Source: a virus. Taken from it: DNA of 22,094 nucleotides. Positions within the stretch are counted from its first letter, which is position 1; every line of letters starts with the position of its first letter. Shown one piece after another: positions 9,551 to 18,120 of the stretch. A model generated the notes under the pieces. That model did no database searches and was not told the origin of the DNA. It worked only from the letters and a program-made list of their open reading frames with translations. The stretch spans positions 1 through 22,094 of the IMG/VR virus record IMGVR_UViG_3300042691_035301. One strand, written 5' to 3'. A program made the position numbers and the translations under genes.

Positions 9551-11389
9551 ATGAAGCTCAAGCCACAGACCCGCTTGATGAAAGCCGAACGGGTCGACGC
9601 CGACGCGCGCACGGTCGCGCTGTCGTTCAGCAGCGAAGCGCCGGTGGAACGCTACTGGGGCAAGGAAGTCCTGAGCCACGAAGGCAAGGCGGCCAACCTG
9701 GACCGGCTCAACGCCGGCGGGCCGCTGCTGTTCAACCACAACCTCGACGACGTCGTCGGCGTGGTCGAGCGCGCATGGATCGACAAGGGCCGCGGCTACG
9801 CCGACGTGCGCTTCCCCAGCGCAGGCACCAGCCCGCGCGCCGATGAAGTGTTCGGACTGGTGCGCGACGGGATCCTGCGCAACGTCAGCTTCATGTACCG
9901 GATCAACCAGGTCGTCGAGGACAAGAAGTCCGAGACCTTCACCGTTACCGACTGGGAAGCGATGGAGGTTTCCATCGTCACCGTGCCGGCGGATCAGTCC
10001 GTTGGCGTGGGGCGCACCGCGCCCATGGATGAACTCGAAGTACGCATCTGCAACACCGAAGCACCGGCCGCTGCAGACCGCGCTTCCGCAATCCCCCCCG
10101 CGGCACCCGCCGCAACCCAAGAGGCTCCAAAGATGACCGAAGCAACTGCCGCGGCGGGCGCAAGCGCCGAAGCTGTGAACCCCGAGCGCCTGCGCATCAA
10201 GGCGATCACGGCCCTCGCCCGCCAGCACAAGATCGACGACGCCCAGCGCGATGCGTGGATCGACAGCGGCGCGGACATGGACGTCGTGACCGGCAAGATC
10301 CTCGACGTGATCGCCGAGCGCGGCGCGAAGAACCCGCAGTCGGAAGCCAAGCTCGATCTGAGCAAGTCCGATCTGAAGCGCTACAGCATGCTGCGCGCGA
10401 TCGAAGCCTGCGCTTCGAAGGATTGGAGCAAGGCCGGGTTCGAGGCCGAGTGCTCGATCGAGATCGCCAAGCGCATGGGCAAGTCGCCGGACAACCGCCG
10501 CTTCCTGGTGCCGTTCGACGTGCTGCAGCGCTCGGTCGGCACCGGCAAGCGCGACCTCAGCGTGACGCCCGCGAGCGCCGGTGGTGCGCTGGTCGAGACG
10601 CAGAACGTCGACTTCGTCACGCTCCTGCGCAACCGCAGCGTTCTCTACGCGATGGGCGCCCGCCGCCTGTCGGGCCTGACCGGCAACGTGACCATCCCGC
10701 GCCACACCGCCGCGGCCACCGCGTTCTGGCTCGGCAGCGAAACCACCCCGGCGACCGAGAGCCAGCAGACCTTCGGCCAGATCGCGATGACGCCAAAGAA
10801 CGTCGCCGCCTACACCGAGATCAGCCGCCAGCTCGCGCTGCAGTCGTCCCCGGACGCCGAGTCGCTGGTCATGGCTGACCTCGCCGCCGTCGTGGCGCTC
10901 GCGGTCGACGCCGCCGGCCTCGTGGGCACGGGTGCAGGTGGCCAGCCCACCGGCATCAACAACACCGCCGGCATCGGCGCGGTCACGGGCACCACCATCG
11001 GCTACGCCGGCATGCTCGAGTTCCAGACCGACACGGCGACCAGCAACGCGCTGTTCGAGTCGGCCGGCTACGTCTGCCCGCCGGCCGTCGCTGCGCTGCT
11101 GATGCAGCGGGTGAAGTTCGCCAGCACCGCCAGCCCGCTGTGGGACGGCAACGTGCTCAACGGCAACGCCTGCGGCTTCCGTGCCATGTCGTCGAACCAG
11201 CTCCCGGCCAGCAACCTGCTGTTCGGTGCATTCGACCAGGTGGTCGTGGGCGAGTGGGGCGTGCTCGAGGTCGAGGTCAACCCATACGCGAACTTCGCCG
11301 CGGGCATCATCGGCGTGCGCGCGTTCTACAGCACCGACATCGGTGTGCGCTACCCGGCCGCGTTCTCGCTGTCGACCAACATCAGCTGA
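9551..11389 (+). CDS. Prohead protease - HK97-fold major capsid protein fusion
   Basis: A 612-residue precursor that joins maturation protease, scaffold region and capsid subunit in one chain. Residues 1-160 are an HK97-type prohead protease: H63 in LLFNHNLDDVVG and S113 in LRNVSFMYRI match the catalytic His and Ser, with EVSIVTVPADQSVGVGR at 139-155. Residues 165-330 are Ala-rich and then helical, a delta/scaffold-like part. From about 335 (LSVTPASAGGALV) to the end is the HK97 capsid fold: ARRLSGLTGNVTIPRHT, EISRQLALQSSPDAESLV, GTGAGGQPTGINNTAGI, and a C-terminal YANFAAGIIGVRAFYSTD. Phages with separate genes make these as two or three proteins. The fused precursor presumably cuts itself after assembly. 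A hairpin follows the stop. Confidence 0.92.
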   Translation: MKLKPQTRLMKAERVDADARTVALSFSSEAPVERYWGKEVLSHEGKAANLDRLNAGGPLLFNHNLDDVVGVVERAWIDKGRGYADVRFPSAGTSPRADEVFGLVRDGILRNVSFMYRINQVVEDKKSETFTVTDWEAMEVSIVTVPADQSVGVGRTAPMDELEVRICNTEAPAAADRASAIPPAAPAATQEAPKMTEATAAAGASAEAVNPERLRIKAITALARQHKIDDAQRDAWIDSGADMDVVTGKILDVIAERGAKNPQSEAKLDLSKSDLKRYSMLRAIEACASKDWSKAGFEAECSIEIAKRMGKSPDNRRFLVPFDVLQRSVGTGKRDLSVTPASAGGALVETQNVDFVTLLRNRSVLYAMGARRLSGLTGNVTIPRHTAAATAFWLGSETTPATESQQTFGQIAMTPKNVAAYTEISRQLALQSSPDAESLVMADLAAVVALAVDAAGLVGTGAGGQPTGINNTAGIGAVTGTTIGYAGMLEFQTDTATSNALFESAGYVCPPAVAALLMQRVKFASTASPLWDGNVLNGNACGFRAMSSNQLPASNLLFGAFDQVVVGEWGVLEVEVNPYANFAAGIIGVRAFYSTDIGVRYPAAFSLSTNIS

Positions 11390-12788: not shown

Positions 12789-12815
12789 AAAGGCCCGCCT
12801 CGCGCGGGCCTTTTT
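12789..12815 (+). terminator. Rho-independent terminator before the tail-tube gene
   Basis: AAAGGCCCGC (12789-12798) pairs with GCGGGCCTTT (12804-12813) around a 5-base loop, and a run of five T (12811-12815) follows. This is a textbook intrinsic terminator, symmetrical enough to work in the other direction too. A smaller hairpin, CGCCGC/GCGGCG at 12822-12836, lies between it and the next start. Confidence 0.88.
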
Positions 12816-12856
12816 CATCTCCGCCGCGCTGCGGCGTCACCTCGAGGACCTGCAAC

Positions 12857-13513
12857 ATGCCCATCATCAGCGCACGCGGCGCCGCCTTTGACATCGCCGC
12901 GACCTTCGGGACCACCGTCACCGTCACCGCCGCCACCAACGTGGCCTCGTCCGTCGTGACCGTCGGCGCCGGCCACGGCACCGCCGTCGGCGACTTCGTC
13001 GAGATCCTCACCGGCGCCGGCTGGCAGCGCGCCGAGGGCCGCATCTTCCGCGTGTCGGTGGTCTCGACCAACGACCTTACCTTCGAAGGTTTCGACACGA
13101 CCAATACCTCACTCTTCCCGGCGGCCGGCTTCGTCGGCGCGACGGTGCGCCGCGTCGCGACTTGGACCACGATCTCGCAGGTCCAGAACCTCGAGCTGAC
13201 GGGCGGCGAGCAGCAGTTCACGGACATCACCGGCATCGGCGACCTCATCGGCAAGCAGTTTCCCACCCTGCGCTCGGCCGTGAGCGCAAACCTGCCGGTG
13301 TTCTATGACCCGAGCCTTTCCTGGCTGTCGACCGTGCGCGCCGCGGCGGATGCGTCGGCCATCCGCGCGCTGCGCGTGCGCGCCGCGTCCGGCATGCGCC
13401 TGCTCATTAACGGATATGTCGGCTTCGTCGACTCGCCCACGATCGAGGGCGACGTGCTGCGCGGCGCCGTCAACTTCGCCGGCGTCAGCATCCCGACGGT
13501 CTACGCGACCTGA
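12857..13513 (+). CDS. Major tail (tail tube) protein
   Basis: A 218-residue beta-rich protein likely to form the stacked hexamers of the tail tube. It has a Thr/Val-rich N-terminus (FGTTVTVTAATNVASSVVTVG), a central ATWTTISQVQNLELTGGEQQFTDITGIGD that matches the beginning of common tube-protein folds, and a C-terminal DSPTIEGDVLRGAVNFAGVSIPTVYAT, where the 'EG-D---G-VNF-GV' strand pair is typical. A GAGGA site (12844-12848) lies 8 bases before the ATG. The gene stands alone between two terminators (12789-12815 and 13523-13579), unlike its tightly packed neighbours, consistent with a very abundant product. Position before G/GT chaperones supports lambda-V equivalence. Confidence 0.82.
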   Translation: MPIISARGAAFDIAATFGTTVTVTAATNVASSVVTVGAGHGTAVGDFVEILTGAGWQRAEGRIFRVSVVSTNDLTFEGFDTTNTSLFPAAGFVGATVRRVATWTTISQVQNLELTGGEQQFTDITGIGDLIGKQFPTLRSAVSANLPVFYDPSLSWLSTVRAAADASAIRALRVRAASGMRLLINGYVGFVDSPTIEGDVLRGAVNFAGVSIPTVYAT

Positions 13514-13522
13514 TCCACCCTG

Positions 13523-13579
13523 CCGGGGGCAGCGCCCCCGGCCCGACGCCGCCCCCGCGTGGGGCGGCGTCTTTCTTTT
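13523..13579 (+). terminator. Double hairpin with terminator after the tail-tube gene
   Basis: Two stem-loops in tandem. The first is CCGGGGGC (13523-13530) with GCCCCCGG (13534-13541). The second is GACGCCGCCCC (13545-13555) with GGGGCGGCGTC (13561-13571), an 11-bp perfect stem with a 5-base loop, followed by TTTCTTTT (13572-13579). The second is a strong intrinsic terminator; the first may stabilise the message. Confidence 0.87.
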
Positions 13580-13599
13580 CCCACTGCAAGGAGTCCAAG

Positions 13600-13974
13600 A
13601 TGCCAAAGTCCATCCGCGAACAAGCCATCGACGCCGCCGCCAAGGTCGGCGCGGTCAAGCAGATCAGCGTCGAGGGCATCGACGAGGTCATTCACGTCGC
13701 ACGCCTGTCCATCGAGGATCGCGCCGGCGTCAGCGACACCGGCCAGACTCCCGGCCGCCGCGCCAACGTGGCCGCCGCGATCAACCTGCTGTTTCTCGCC
13801 GTGGTCACCGGCGCGCGTGGGCCCGACGACAAGCTGCAGCCGTACATGTCGCGCGACGAATGGGCCGCCTGGGCCGGCGACCACCCCGAAACCTTTACCC
13901 GCCTCTCGCTGGCCGTGCAGGCCGCGCAAGGCGACACCACCGCCGACGACGCCGTCGCGCTGGGAAACGGCTAG
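13600..13974 (+). CDS. Tail assembly chaperone, gpG-like
   Basis: The shorter tail assembly chaperone, 124 residues, needed to bring tape measure and tube protein together; absent from finished virions in lambda. AAGGAG (13588-13593) lies 6 bases before the ATG. The N-terminal half has a short strand pair (VKQISVEGIDEVIHVARLS), then helices (RRANVAAAINLLFLAV; SRDEWAAWAGDHPETFTRLSLAVQAAQG). The gene ends one codon after a GGGAAAC slippery heptamer, so some ribosomes continue in the -1 frame to make a longer protein. The place between tube and tape-measure genes is diagnostic. Confidence 0.8.
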   Translation: MPKSIREQAIDAAAKVGAVKQISVEGIDEVIHVARLSIEDRAGVSDTGQTPGRRANVAAAINLLFLAVVTGARGPDDKLQPYMSRDEWAAWAGDHPETFTRLSLAVQAAQGDTTADDAVALGNG

Positions 13975-14261
13975 CCACCGACCTGCAGGAACGCGTCATC
14001 ACGGCGCTGTGCTTCCGCCTGGGGCGCACCCGGGCTGAACTGCGCGCCAGCATGACCGCGCAGGAGTTCGCCCAGTGGGTCGCGCTGTTCCTGGTGCGCC
14101 CGTTCGACGACTACCACCTGCACGAGCTCCCGCAGGCCTTGATCCGCGCCACGCTGATCCAGCTACAGGGCGGCAAGCCGAAGCTGGAAGATTTGCTGTA
14201 CAGCAAACGCGCCGAGTCGGCATCGCTCGAAGGCTTCGCCGAGCGCATCAAGGGCGACTGA
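13600..14261 (+). CDS. gpGT-like frameshift fusion (tail assembly chaperone)
   Basis: Predicted -1 frameshift product of about 220 residues: 123 residues of the G-like protein, then 97 from the second frame, read from base 13968 (RLATDLQERVITALCFRL). The T part has the family features RAELRASMTAQEFAQWVALFLVRPFDD, then a helix, and ends GGKPKLEDLLYSKRAES and a short acidic tail; the 'F--W----L-RPFDD' block is typical of gpT/DUF4035 partners. The T reading frame has no good start of its own near 13968, and its open extension upstream runs antithetically through the tube gene with Arg-rich nonsense. In lambda the T domain recruits tube subunits and the G domain binds tape measure. Confidence 0.82.
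13962..13968 (+). promoter_or_regulatory. -1 ribosomal frameshift site GGGAAAC
   Basis: The heptamer G-GGA-AAC is in the correct phase with the G frame (codons GGA 13963-13965, AAC 13966-13968), a canonical X-XXY-YYZ site and one base different from lambda's GGGAAAG. The zero-frame TAG stop follows after one codon (13972-13974). I see no clear stimulatory hairpin just downstream. Confidence 0.85.
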
Positions 14262-14274
14262 CGAAGGAGGGGGC

Positions 14275-14865
14275 GTGGCGCTGAGCATCACCATCGACGA
14301 TCGCCGCGCCCTTCGCGCCCTCGAGCGGCAACTTGACCGGGTGGCGAAGAACGTCGGCCGCGAGCTGGAGCGGGCCACCATCAGCGTGCAGCGCGCGACG
14401 TTCACCGAATCGAAGCGCGCGATCACCGAGGTCTACAACCTGCCGCAAAACCGCGTCGCCGGGCCACTGAGCGTCAACACGGCGGCCAACCGGCGCGGCT
14501 TCGTGGTGCGCGGCAACCCGACGCCGATCACTTTCGTGAGCTACCGCGCGCGCGCCCTGACCCGTGGCGGCGTGCAGGTGGCCATCTTAAAGGGAAAGGC
14601 CAAGGTCATCCGCAAGGGCTTCAAGGCACCCAGCCCGCAAGGCACCGACCTGTTCTGGATCCGCACCGGCGAGGAACCGCGCCGCATGACCCGCGGGCGG
14701 TACGCCGGGCAGACCCGCGAGCCGATCCGGCCGCTGACGGGCCCGAGCGTGGCGGATCACCTCAACAACCGCAGCGTCCGCGGCCGCATCGAGCGCTTCT
14801 ACTTCACCCGCATGAACCGCGAATTGCTGGCCCGCATCAACCGGCTGCAGCGCAACAGGACCTGA
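14275..14865 (+). CDS. Minor tail protein Z-like
   Basis: A 196-residue basic protein of the prophage minor tail protein Z family, in lambda required to finish tails that can join heads. It has a helical N-terminus (RALRALERQLDRVAKNVGRELERA; VQRATFTESKRAITEVYNL), a 'NPTPITFVSYRARALTRGGVQVAI' beta section, then TDLFWIRTGEEPRRM and the family's PIRPLTGPSVADHL before the last helix. AAGGAGG (14264-14270) lies 4 bases before the GTG. It stands between the GT chaperones and the tape measure, while in lambda Z comes before U and V. The stop is 3 bases before the tape-measure start. Confidence 0.75.
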   Translation: MALSITIDDRRALRALERQLDRVAKNVGRELERATISVQRATFTESKRAITEVYNLPQNRVAGPLSVNTAANRRGFVVRGNPTPITFVSYRARALTRGGVQVAILKGKAKVIRKGFKAPSPQGTDLFWIRTGEEPRRMTRGRYAGQTREPIRPLTGPSVADHLNNRSVRGRIERFYFTRMNRELLARINRLQRNRT

Positions 14866-14868
14866 CCC

Positions 14869-17800
14869 GTGGCGCAAACTGAAACCACCATCGTCTTCGG
14901 CGCAGTTGACAAGATCACGCCGGTGCTGCGCGGGATCGAGGGGCAGGTCAAGGGCCTCAATACCGCGTTCGCTGCGGCCGCTGCCGGCGGAATCGCCGCA
15001 CTGGCTGCGACGGTCGCGGCCACCGTCGATTCGCTCGACAAGCTCGGCGACCAGGCGCGCGCGCTCAACATCACCACCGAATCGCTCAGTGGCCTAGGCT
15101 TCGCCGCGCAGCAGTCCGGCAGCAGCGCGGAGACGCTCAACGCGGGCCTCACGCGGCTCAACAAGACGCTAGGCGATGCCGCCAACGGCAACAAGCAGGC
15201 CGCGGCGCTGTTCGACAGCCTCGGCATCAGCATCAAGGACGCGCAGGGCAAGGTCATCAGCGCCGACGCGGCGCTGCTGCAGGTGGCGTCGCGCTTTGAG
15301 TCCTACCAGGACGGCGCGCAGGAAGCCGCGATTGCCACGCAACTGTTCGGCCGCTCGGCCGGGCCTGAGCTGCTCGCGCTGCTCAACGAGGGCCAAGGCG
15401 GCATTGCCGCGCTGACCGACGAGGCGGCGCGGCTGGGCGTCGTTGTCGGCGGCGACGCGGTTGCGGCGGCGCAGGCCTTCAGCGACAACCTCGACAAGCT
15501 GAAGGCCGCCGGCTCCGGCTTCGCCACCGCGCTCACCACGGCCATCCTGCCAGCGCTCAACGAGTTCAGCACCGATGCCGCCGAGGCCGCCAAGAACGGC
15601 GGGCTGCTGGCCGAGGCGGGCAAGTTCATCGGCAACGAGCTGAACCTGTTCTCGGTCGACCTGATCGAGGCGGCCAGCGAGATCGAGGTGCTCGGCGCCG
15701 AAGTCGCCAACGCGGTGGCGTTCCTGACCGACTGGTCCGAAAACCTCGGCGTGGTCGGCAACATCGCCATCGTCACCTTCCAGTCGATCGAAGCCGCCGC
15801 CAGCGGCAACTTCGCCGCGGCCGAGCGCGGCCTGGACGCCATCACCCGTGCCGTCGACGCGCTGGGCAACAAGGCCGCCGCCGACGCCGCCAAGCGGATG
15901 GGCGACCTGGCGTCAAGCATCAGCAGCATCAAGGCCGACGCAGCCGTCAAGATCGAGCGGATCAAGGGCGGCGTCGAAGGCCTCGCGAAGTCGGCCAAGC
16001 CCGCCGCCGACAACGCCGCAAAGCTGCCGCCGCCGATCATCGAGATCGGCGAGGAAAGCGAAAAGGCCGCGGCAAAAGTTAAGAAGCTGGGGCAGGAAGT
16101 CGAGCGACTCACCGGCTTCAACCTGGCGTTCCAACGCAGCCTCGCGCCGGTCAGCGAGTCCATGCAGTCGCTGGTCGAGGACATCGACCTTGGCGCCATC
16201 TCGTTCGACAACCTGCGCGAGTCGCAAGCGGTCCTGAACCAGACCACGACCGAGGAAGCGCAGTTCTTCGCCGACAACTGGGCCGGCGCGGTCGACGCAG
16301 CCAGCGACGCCTTCGCCGACTTCATCGCCGGCAACATCAAGTCGTTTGAGGACTTCGGCGACGCGCTGGAATCGATCGCGCGGCAATTTCTTTCGAACTT
16401 GGTGCGGCAGTTCCTGAGCACGAACCTGCAGTTCAACGTGTCCGGCGGTCCCGGCGGTGGGCTAGGGGCTGTCGGCGGCTCTGGATTCCTCAACATGCTG
16501 AACGGGGGCGGCGCAGCGCTGTCCACGCTGGGCCCTGCCGCATTGCTGCTGGCAGGGGCCAGCACCGGCAACCGCGGCACCGGCGCGCTGTCCGGTGGCC
16601 TCGCGGGCGGGCTGTTCGCCTCGACCACGTTCGGCGCTGGGGTGATCGGTTCCGGCCTTTCCGGCCTTGGGTTGGGCGCCTCGCTCGGCTCTGTGGTCCC
16701 GATTGTCGGCACGATCATCGGCGCCATCATCGGCGGGCTTGCTGCCAATCTCTTTGCAGCCAAACCGCCAAGCATCAACGTTATCGGCGACGACATCGTC
16801 GGCACGCCGGGGTTCCGCAACTTCGCGCCGGGCTCAACGTTTGAGTCGCGGCTGGGCGGCTTCACCTTCGCGTCGATCGACAGCGTCGACCGGCAGACGC
16901 GCGACCAGATCGGCCAGTCGGTCGTGCAGTTCGACAACACCATCGCCGACCTGCTCAACGCCGACCAGCTCGACAAGGTCACCGACGCGCTGGCAGGCTT
17001 TAACCTGCGCCTGCAGGAGGGCGCGATCAGTGCCGAGAACATCCTCGGGCAACGTTTCGACGCGATCCTCGCCACGTTCGACCAGGACGTGCAGGACTTT
17101 GTCAACGGCGCGGCGACCCTTGAGGAACGCACTGCGCGACTCGCGGAAATCCTTAGCCGCCCGCAGCGCCTGAACGCGTTGATTGAGTCCCTGGAAGAGG
17201 TCGACCGGCTCTCCGGCTTGACCCCGTTCGAGCGCGAGCTGGACGCCATCAATCGGCAGTTCGACGCCGCGGCCGAGGAAGCGCGCAAGCTGGGCGCCGA
17301 CCAGGCGCAACTGGCTCGCATCGAGGAACTGCGCGGCAACGCGATTGAGCGTCTCAACGACTTGCAGCGGCAGAACCTGGACGCGCTGCTCGACGACCTG
17401 CGCTTCGACGACCTTACCGATGGCCTGACCCCGGCCGACCGGGCTATCGCCGACATCAACCGTCGATTCGACAGACTGCGCGAGCAGGCGATCGCATTGG
17501 GCGCGTCCCAAGAAGACCTCGAACTGATCGAGCGTCGCCGCACAGCCGCGCTGCGCGAACAGGCGGACGCCACCCGAGATTCAACCGACGCCATCCAAGA
17601 GTTCACGGACGCCGCGCAACAGTCGTTTCAACTCTACCTGGACTATCAAGCGGACTGGCTCGAAGGGCTGGGCAACGCGCTGCAGCCAGTGCGCGACTGG
17701 CTTAACCGCGGGGGTAGCGTCACCAGTGAAAACCCGTTGCAACAACTCACCCGCAGCCAGCAGCAATTTGAGGACTTGGCACGGCGCGCATCGTTGGGCG

Positions 17801-18120
17801 ACTTCGACGCCATCCGCGGCATTGCGGGCGCCGGTGACGCGCTGTTGCAACAGGCAGCGCGATTCTACGGCGTGGGATCGGCTGATTTTCAGCGTTACGA
17901 GGCGCTCGTGCGCGGCACGCTCACGCCGTTGGCTAGCGTCGATGGGAGCCAGTCGATGGCAGTCGCGCTCGGACAGTTGCGCGAGATTTATCAGGCGTTG
18001 CTGCGATTCCTTCAGGGCGGCAATGGGGCAACCAACAGCGGCGTCATGAGCGGCGCGCAGGCACAGCAACTGCTCAACTCGCTTGATCGCCTCTCGCGGC
18101 GTACGGATCGGGTGACCTGA
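14869..18120 (+). CDS. Tape measure protein
   Basis: The 1083-residue ruler that sets tail length and helps DNA cross the envelope. The N-terminus (FGAVDKITPVLRGIEGQVKGL, then LGDQARALNITTESLSGLGF) is a standard tape-measure core, with long helices rich in Ala. Residues about 525-632 form a Gly/Ala hydrophobic stretch (SVVPIVGTIIGAIIGGLAANLF) that could insert into membrane. The segment just before it (EDFGDALESIARQFLSNLVRQFL) resembles the lambda H-type C-terminal domain. Two copies of a helix-rich unit start near 783 and 852 (GLTPFERELDAINRQFD; GLTPADRAIADINRRFD), 69 residues apart. At about 0.15 nm per residue it predicts a tail near 160 nm. Codon use loosens after roughly 17,400. The GTG start is 3 bases after the gpZ-like stop. 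Confidence 0.92.
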   Translation: MAQTETTIVFGAVDKITPVLRGIEGQVKGLNTAFAAAAAGGIAALAATVAATVDSLDKLGDQARALNITTESLSGLGFAAQQSGSSAETLNAGLTRLNKTLGDAANGNKQAAALFDSLGISIKDAQGKVISADAALLQVASRFESYQDGAQEAAIATQLFGRSAGPELLALLNEGQGGIAALTDEAARLGVVVGGDAVAAAQAFSDNLDKLKAAGSGFATALTTAILPALNEFSTDAAEAAKNGGLLAEAGKFIGNELNLFSVDLIEAASEIEVLGAEVANAVAFLTDWSENLGVVGNIAIVTFQSIEAAASGNFAAAERGLDAITRAVDALGNKAAADAAKRMGDLASSISSIKADAAVKIERIKGGVEGLAKSAKPAADNAAKLPPPIIEIGEESEKAAAKVKKLGQEVERLTGFNLAFQRSLAPVSESMQSLVEDIDLGAISFDNLRESQAVLNQTTTEEAQFFADNWAGAVDAASDAFADFIAGNIKSFEDFGDALESIARQFLSNLVRQFLSTNLQFNVSGGPGGGLGAVGGSGFLNMLNGGGAALSTLGPAALLLAGASTGNRGTGALSGGLAGGLFASTTFGAGVIGSGLSGLGLGASLGSVVPIVGTIIGAIIGGLAANLFAAKPPSINVIGDDIVGTPGFRNFAPGSTFESRLGGFTFASIDSVDRQTRDQIGQSVVQFDNTIADLLNADQLDKVTDALAGFNLRLQEGAISAENILGQRFDAILATFDQDVQDFVNGAATLEERTARLAEILSRPQRLNALIESLEEVDRLSGLTPFERELDAINRQFDAAAEEARKLGADQAQLARIEELRGNAIERLNDLQRQNLDALLDDLRFDDLTDGLTPADRAIADINRRFDRLREQAIALGASQEDLELIERRRTAALREQADATRDSTDAIQEFTDAAQQSFQLYLDYQADWLEGLGNALQPVRDWLNRGGSVTSENPLQQLTRSQQQFEDLARRASLGDFDAIRGIAGAGDALLQQAARFYGVGSADFQRYEALVRGTLTPLASVDGSQSMAVALGQLREIYQALLRFLQGGNGATNSGVMSGAQAQQLLNSLDRLSRRTDRVT

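Follow-up and report, generated by a model that had tools for sequence, protein, structure and literature searches.

Across long-tailed phages the G/GT frameshift is widely conserved; lambda makes G and GT at a ratio of about 30:1 (PMC5009743). In that phage the heptamer GGGAAAG lies near the end of G, with the stop codon 15 nt past it, and is followed by a T-domain extension in the −1 frame between the tube and tape measure genes. The variant GGGAAAC is not new as a tail-chaperone slip site, having already been reported for Burkholderia phage KL1 (PMC3483164), Caulobacter phage CcrColossus (PMC3556154) and HCTV-1 (PMC5009743). Usual 3′ stimulators of such sites lie 5-9 nt away, the range discussed being 3-15 nt (PMC5009743).

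For KL1 gp18/gp19, GGGAAAC is followed directly by the stop codon (PMC3483164), a gene intervenes before the tape measure gene, and the annotation likens the proteins to those of Pseudomonas phage 73. The HK97-like phage HK446, like KL1, carries an extra gene between T and the tape measure gene. The nearest described relatives of the T domain studied here, at 38-42% identity, are those of Burkholderia phages KS9 (gp11/gp12) and Bcep176 (gp69/69′), which have A-rich slip sites (AAAAAAA/AAAAAAG) and a stop at +33. A joined GT gene is annotated for the same arrangement in KS9, Bcep176, HK446 and KL1.

The slip site and its gene context

The window, that is the whole stretch of viral DNA of 22,094 nt that was analysed, contains the following features.

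12857-13513, plus strand: major tail tube protein (PF08813, E 4e-33; phrog_584, E 3e-51)
13545-13571, plus strand: terminator-like hairpin and T tract in the gap between the tube gene and G (hairpin scan)
13588-13593, plus strand: AAGGAG, ribosome-binding site of G, read in the sequence, 6 nt from the ATG at 13600
13600-13974, plus strand: gpG-like tail assembly chaperone, frame-0 product of 124 aa (predicted fold)
13962-13968, plus strand: −1 slippery heptamer G_GGA_AAC, in phase with the G ORF and kept in relatives
13968-14261, plus strand: T extension after the −1 shift, 97 aa (PF06223, phrog_337, phrog_14766, dN/dS)
14275-14865, plus strand: gpZ/Neck1-like tail completion protein, between T and the tape measure gene (phrog_27, E 2.4e-13)
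14869-18120, plus strand: tail tape measure protein, 1083 aa (several tape-measure PHROGs; PF10145, E 1e-10)

As stated in a first-pass annotation, made from the letters of the DNA, GGGAAAC occupies 13962-13968 in X_XXY_YYZ phase with the ORF 13600-13974, one codon ahead of TAG; this was confirmed by reading the sequence. Positions 13960-13974 read ct G GGA AAC GGC TAG, the frame-0 codons being GGA (13963-65), AAC (13966-68), GGC and TAG (13972-74). The comparison with lambda drawn in that annotation was right: in both, a GGG AAA heptamer close to the 3′ end of G leads into a −1 T-domain extension, placed between tube and tape measure genes. The window differs from lambda in the last base of the heptamer, in its stop 3 nt after the heptamer and in the gpZ-like gene that separates T from the tape measure gene. 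An intervening gene is found in KL1 and HK446 as well, and KL1 also has the identical heptamer next to the stop. With the pre-tape measure chaperone of CcrColossus, which belongs to a different phage group, the GGGAAAC slip site is shared.

The site is very probably a programmed −1 ribosomal frameshift of the lambda G/GT type between the tail-tube and tape-measure genes. The G/GT reading, already claimed in the first-pass annotation, is supported by T-domain profiles, the predicted G fold, the tube and tape-measure context, selection in the T frame and the kept heptamer. We infer the occurrence of slippage, its efficiency and the roles of G and GT in assembly as follows. Most ribosomes would read the ORF 13600-13974 and release G, a predicted tail assembly chaperone. 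In a minority, the tRNAs paired to GGA and AAC would slip back one base onto GGG and AAA; translation would then bypass TAG in the −1 frame and yield the 220-aa GT fusion. If assembly follows that of lambda, G and GT would coat the tape measure protein, the T part would recruit tube protein, and neither product would stay in the virion.

The surrounding genes fit the positions given to them earlier. The tube gene ahead of G was borne out by its PF08813 and phrog_584 matches, and the Z-like label after T is acceptable for a match to phrog_27 (tail completion or Neck1 protein). G and T thus lie between the major tail protein and the tape measure, with one gpZ-like gene intervening. An ORF of the same size as the latter (197 aa) follows T in L003 (2703-3296) and L020 (2904-3497), and in L028 and L063 a long ORF of tape-measure size follows T directly. 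The terminator-like hairpin and T tract at 13545-13571 is strong, and annotated rho-independent terminators likewise flank the major tail gene of HK446; a second GC hairpin followed by T's is visible at about 12790-12820, absent from the hairpin scan output. The major capsid ORF (9551-11389, 612 aa) carries a Peptidase_S78 prohead protease domain, PF04586 preceding PF05065.

Pfam and PHROG profile searches gave no sequence-family match for G. Its AlphaFold (AF2) model, built from six sequences, reached a pLDDT of 83, and in a fold search of the PDB the HK97 tail assembly chaperone 2ob9 ranked first (E 0.017, probability 0.97, 18% identity). At this E value the match is modest and not significant, and it is suggestive of a chaperone-like fold. 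Viral fold matches of the same model include entries named 'tail assembly chaperone', and the CcrColossus pre-tape measure chaperone is also a fold match of G.

As a bare 7-mer GGGAAAC is unremarkable, with 5 copies in the window on both strands against 2.0 ± 1.5 expected; it is meaningful through phase, position and conservation and not through rarity. Across 12 of the main genes of the window only two in-phase heptamers of the XXXAAAN/XXXTTTN type occur, GGGAAAC at 13962 and GGGAAAG at 14592. With the codon usage of the window, a Leu-Gly-Asn triplet would give the present heptamer with a probability of about 0.025, which is low because GGA makes up 4.4% of the window's Gly codons. The lambda-like GGGAAAG at 14592-14598, in phase inside the gpZ-like gene, was rejected as a second shift site because it is missing at the matching place in L003; its occurrence is probably due to chance.

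The reading frame of T

Past the heptamer the −1 frame reads RLATDLQERVITALCFRLG... (RLATDLQER...), its stop ending at 14261. The gpGT product thus comprises the residues encoded by 13600-13968 followed by those of 13968-14258, 220 aa in all. The T extension matched PF06223 (Phage_tail_T) with an E value of 8.1e-8, above the curated cut-off, and phrog_337 with an E value of 1.2e-11, while the longer profile phrog_14766 was matched at its positions 130-204 of 224; the gpT-like domain proposed for the −1 frame through 14261 is therefore borne out by these profiles. The T model (pLDDT 67) was too uncertain for a fold search.

Between the window and its relatives, dN/dS was 0.40-0.53 in the T frame, and 0.69-1.43 and 1.6-3.0 for the same DNA read in the other two frames. 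Only for the T frame was the ratio below 1 in every pair. As judged from these substitution patterns, purifying selection acts in the T frame only.

Were T an independent gene, started within the overlap or ahead of it, the heptamer would be incidental. The T frame is open from 13284 and offers an ATG at 13860, upstream of the junction. However, 13860 has no Shine-Dalgarno sequence ahead of it, and the −1 frame from there to the junction gives an Arg-rich, out-of-frame translation. From the heptamer to T residue 29 the frame has no ATG, GTG or TTG, so that the first start codon past the heptamer lies at residue 29, beyond conserved sequence: conservation starts at residues 1-9, and the stretch ahead of residue 29 ranks with the best conserved parts of T. 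A separate gene also leaves the retention of GGA and AAC at the nucleotide level unexplained. We consider it very unlikely, and T is treated below as the −1 extension of G.

The junction in relatives

The heptamer is in phase in all four close relatives (L018, L003, L019 and L020); three of them have GGGAAAC and the fourth has GGGAAAA. By a criterion named beforehand, the shift would have been contradicted had close relatives with both frames lost the heptamer; with 4/4 retaining it, the claim was not refuted. In L019 the G stop is shifted to +27, the heptamer being unmoved. In each of the four, the GGA of the site is the sole GGA among the 28-34 Gly codons of the tube gene and G.

Further junctions were collected by scanning with a tail-tube alignment, giving 57 distinct junctions with the window included. 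In all 57 an XXXAAAN heptamer stands in phase ahead of a −1 extension, namely AAAAAAC (34), GGGAAAC (16), AAAAAAA (5), GGGAAAA (1) and CCCAAAG (1). A search of genome_contigs returned no G/GT relatives. The T module varies while the shift site persists, since among 28 sampled extensions 8 match PF06223 and 6 match DUF1799, the remainder mostly having no Pfam family match. Extensions of the AAAAAAC group are often devoid of the PF06223 T domain. At one further locus, L087 (5011-5103), GGGAAAC is in phase and the T frame stops about 28 codons on, unlike in its neighbour L088; the interruption perhaps reflects a decayed prophage or a sequence error.

These junctions bear on two other explanations of the broken frame. 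Had a single base been gained or lost in sequencing or assembly, a continuous gene would look alike, and the window is a single metagenomic contig; yet the four independent relative contigs, and 57 distinct junctions overall, repeat this frame arrangement together with a slip heptamer, by which an indel is refuted for practical purposes. Slippage of RNA polymerase instead of the ribosome, as the source of the longer product, is made conceivable by the A6-A7 runs of some relatives. At the window site the runs are just three G and three A long, too short for polymerase slippage. Nor would such slippage need the X_XXY_YYZ phase, yet the relatives keep it, making this route extremely improbable. 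Slippage of the ribosome is the reading retained.

The first-pass annotation had set AAC in the second slot apart from lambda. The codon is there as described, but it is not unusual, being the second slip codon in 50 of the 57 junctions, and GGGAAAC has published precedent. In E. coli, A_AAA_AAC is far less shift-prone than A_AAA_AAG (PMC5009743), which counts against the frameshift reading. With AAC in this slot at 50/57, most genes of this sort would escape a search built solely on the AAG motif of E. coli. The preference for AAC may plausibly stem from hosts that have a separate tRNA-Lys(CUU), in which slippage on AAG would be poor.

Stimulators and the distal hairpin

The features of dnaX/IS-type stimulated cassettes, a stem-loop at 5-9 nt and a Shine-Dalgarno-like sequence 10-14 nt upstream, were not found in the window. 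Considering stem-loops only, the five sequences of the window clade gave no structure 5-9 nt past the heptamer, the usual spacing (at +5, mean z 0.05), and no Shine-Dalgarno-like stimulator was present within 25 nt upstream of the window heptamer. Folded as a single sequence, 13969-14060, the interval singled out in the first-pass annotation, gave nothing beyond chance (z −0.6, stem-loops only), and neither did 13974-14020 (z +0.8). RNAalifold applied to the five close relatives returned a multibranch fold in which covariation was nearly absent (a single pair, with an unfavourable covariation term).

In the AAAAAAC sister group a stem-loop begins about 5-7 nt past the heptamer, with a mean z of −2.0 against a background of synonymous-codon shuffles and a z below −2 in 22 of the 34. 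Compensatory changes were found in 5/6 of its consensus pairs, and many loci of the group have GAGG 11 nt upstream of the heptamer. Several of them (L028, L035, L048, L061 and others) show the canonical cassette of a stop adjoining the heptamer and a covarying stem-loop at +5-7.

Further downstream in the window, the following element was noted.

14013-14039, plus strand: distal mRNA hairpin, a putative element, 44 nt past the heptamer (+45 to +71; folding z, paired changes)

The earlier statement that no downstream stimulator is visible therefore stands at the canonical distance, but a conserved hairpin of unproven role lies 44 nt on. Its stem has 11 bp in the relatives and one mismatched pair in the window copy (col 55-75). 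With a mean z of about −2.6 over five sequences, it is the strongest region of the T gene and the only one with a mean z below −1.6. Following addition of the more distant L037, two pairs were changed on both sides, and 97% of the hairpin cells were paired, as compared with 26-58% when the partner strand was slid. The comparison suggests that the hairpin is conserved at the nucleotide level. Its function is a lead only, because the offset was picked post hoc, the few sequences are related to one another, and inverted repeats arise readily from the RLGxTxAEL protein motif.

KS9 and Bcep176 have strong hairpins (z to −4.4) at a similar distance past their shift sites, and KL1 has one as well (z to −2.3); the lambda hairpin is weaker (z to −2.3) and closer to the shift site. 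The element is not general, and is missing where a proximal stem exists (L024, L040 and most of the AAAAAAC group). A role in queueing ribosomes is disfavoured, frame-0 ribosomes of the window stopping at +3, before they would reach the hairpin.

The AAC second codon, the missing proximal stem and the mismatch in the window's distal hairpin could together mean that the site is genuine by descent, with slippage negligible and T not usefully made in this phage. Against this, T is unbroken, and comparison of the window with its relatives shows it to be under purifying selection; lambda needs only a low GT:G ratio of about 1:30 (PMC5009743). Negligible slippage is hence judged highly unlikely, and production of GT by frameshifting is preferred.

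The T domain of this uncultivated phage group can now be annotated correctly; a standard gene caller would omit T or give it the wrong start. More tentatively, a hairpin about 30-44 nt past the heptamer may be under selection in G/GT cassettes that have no proximal stem-loop, possibly setting the amount of GT or shielding a sparsely translated T. If true, the hairpin would be a distal element beyond the usual spacer range of 3-15 nt, and it offers a testable lead on how the level of GT is set where a proximal stimulator is absent.
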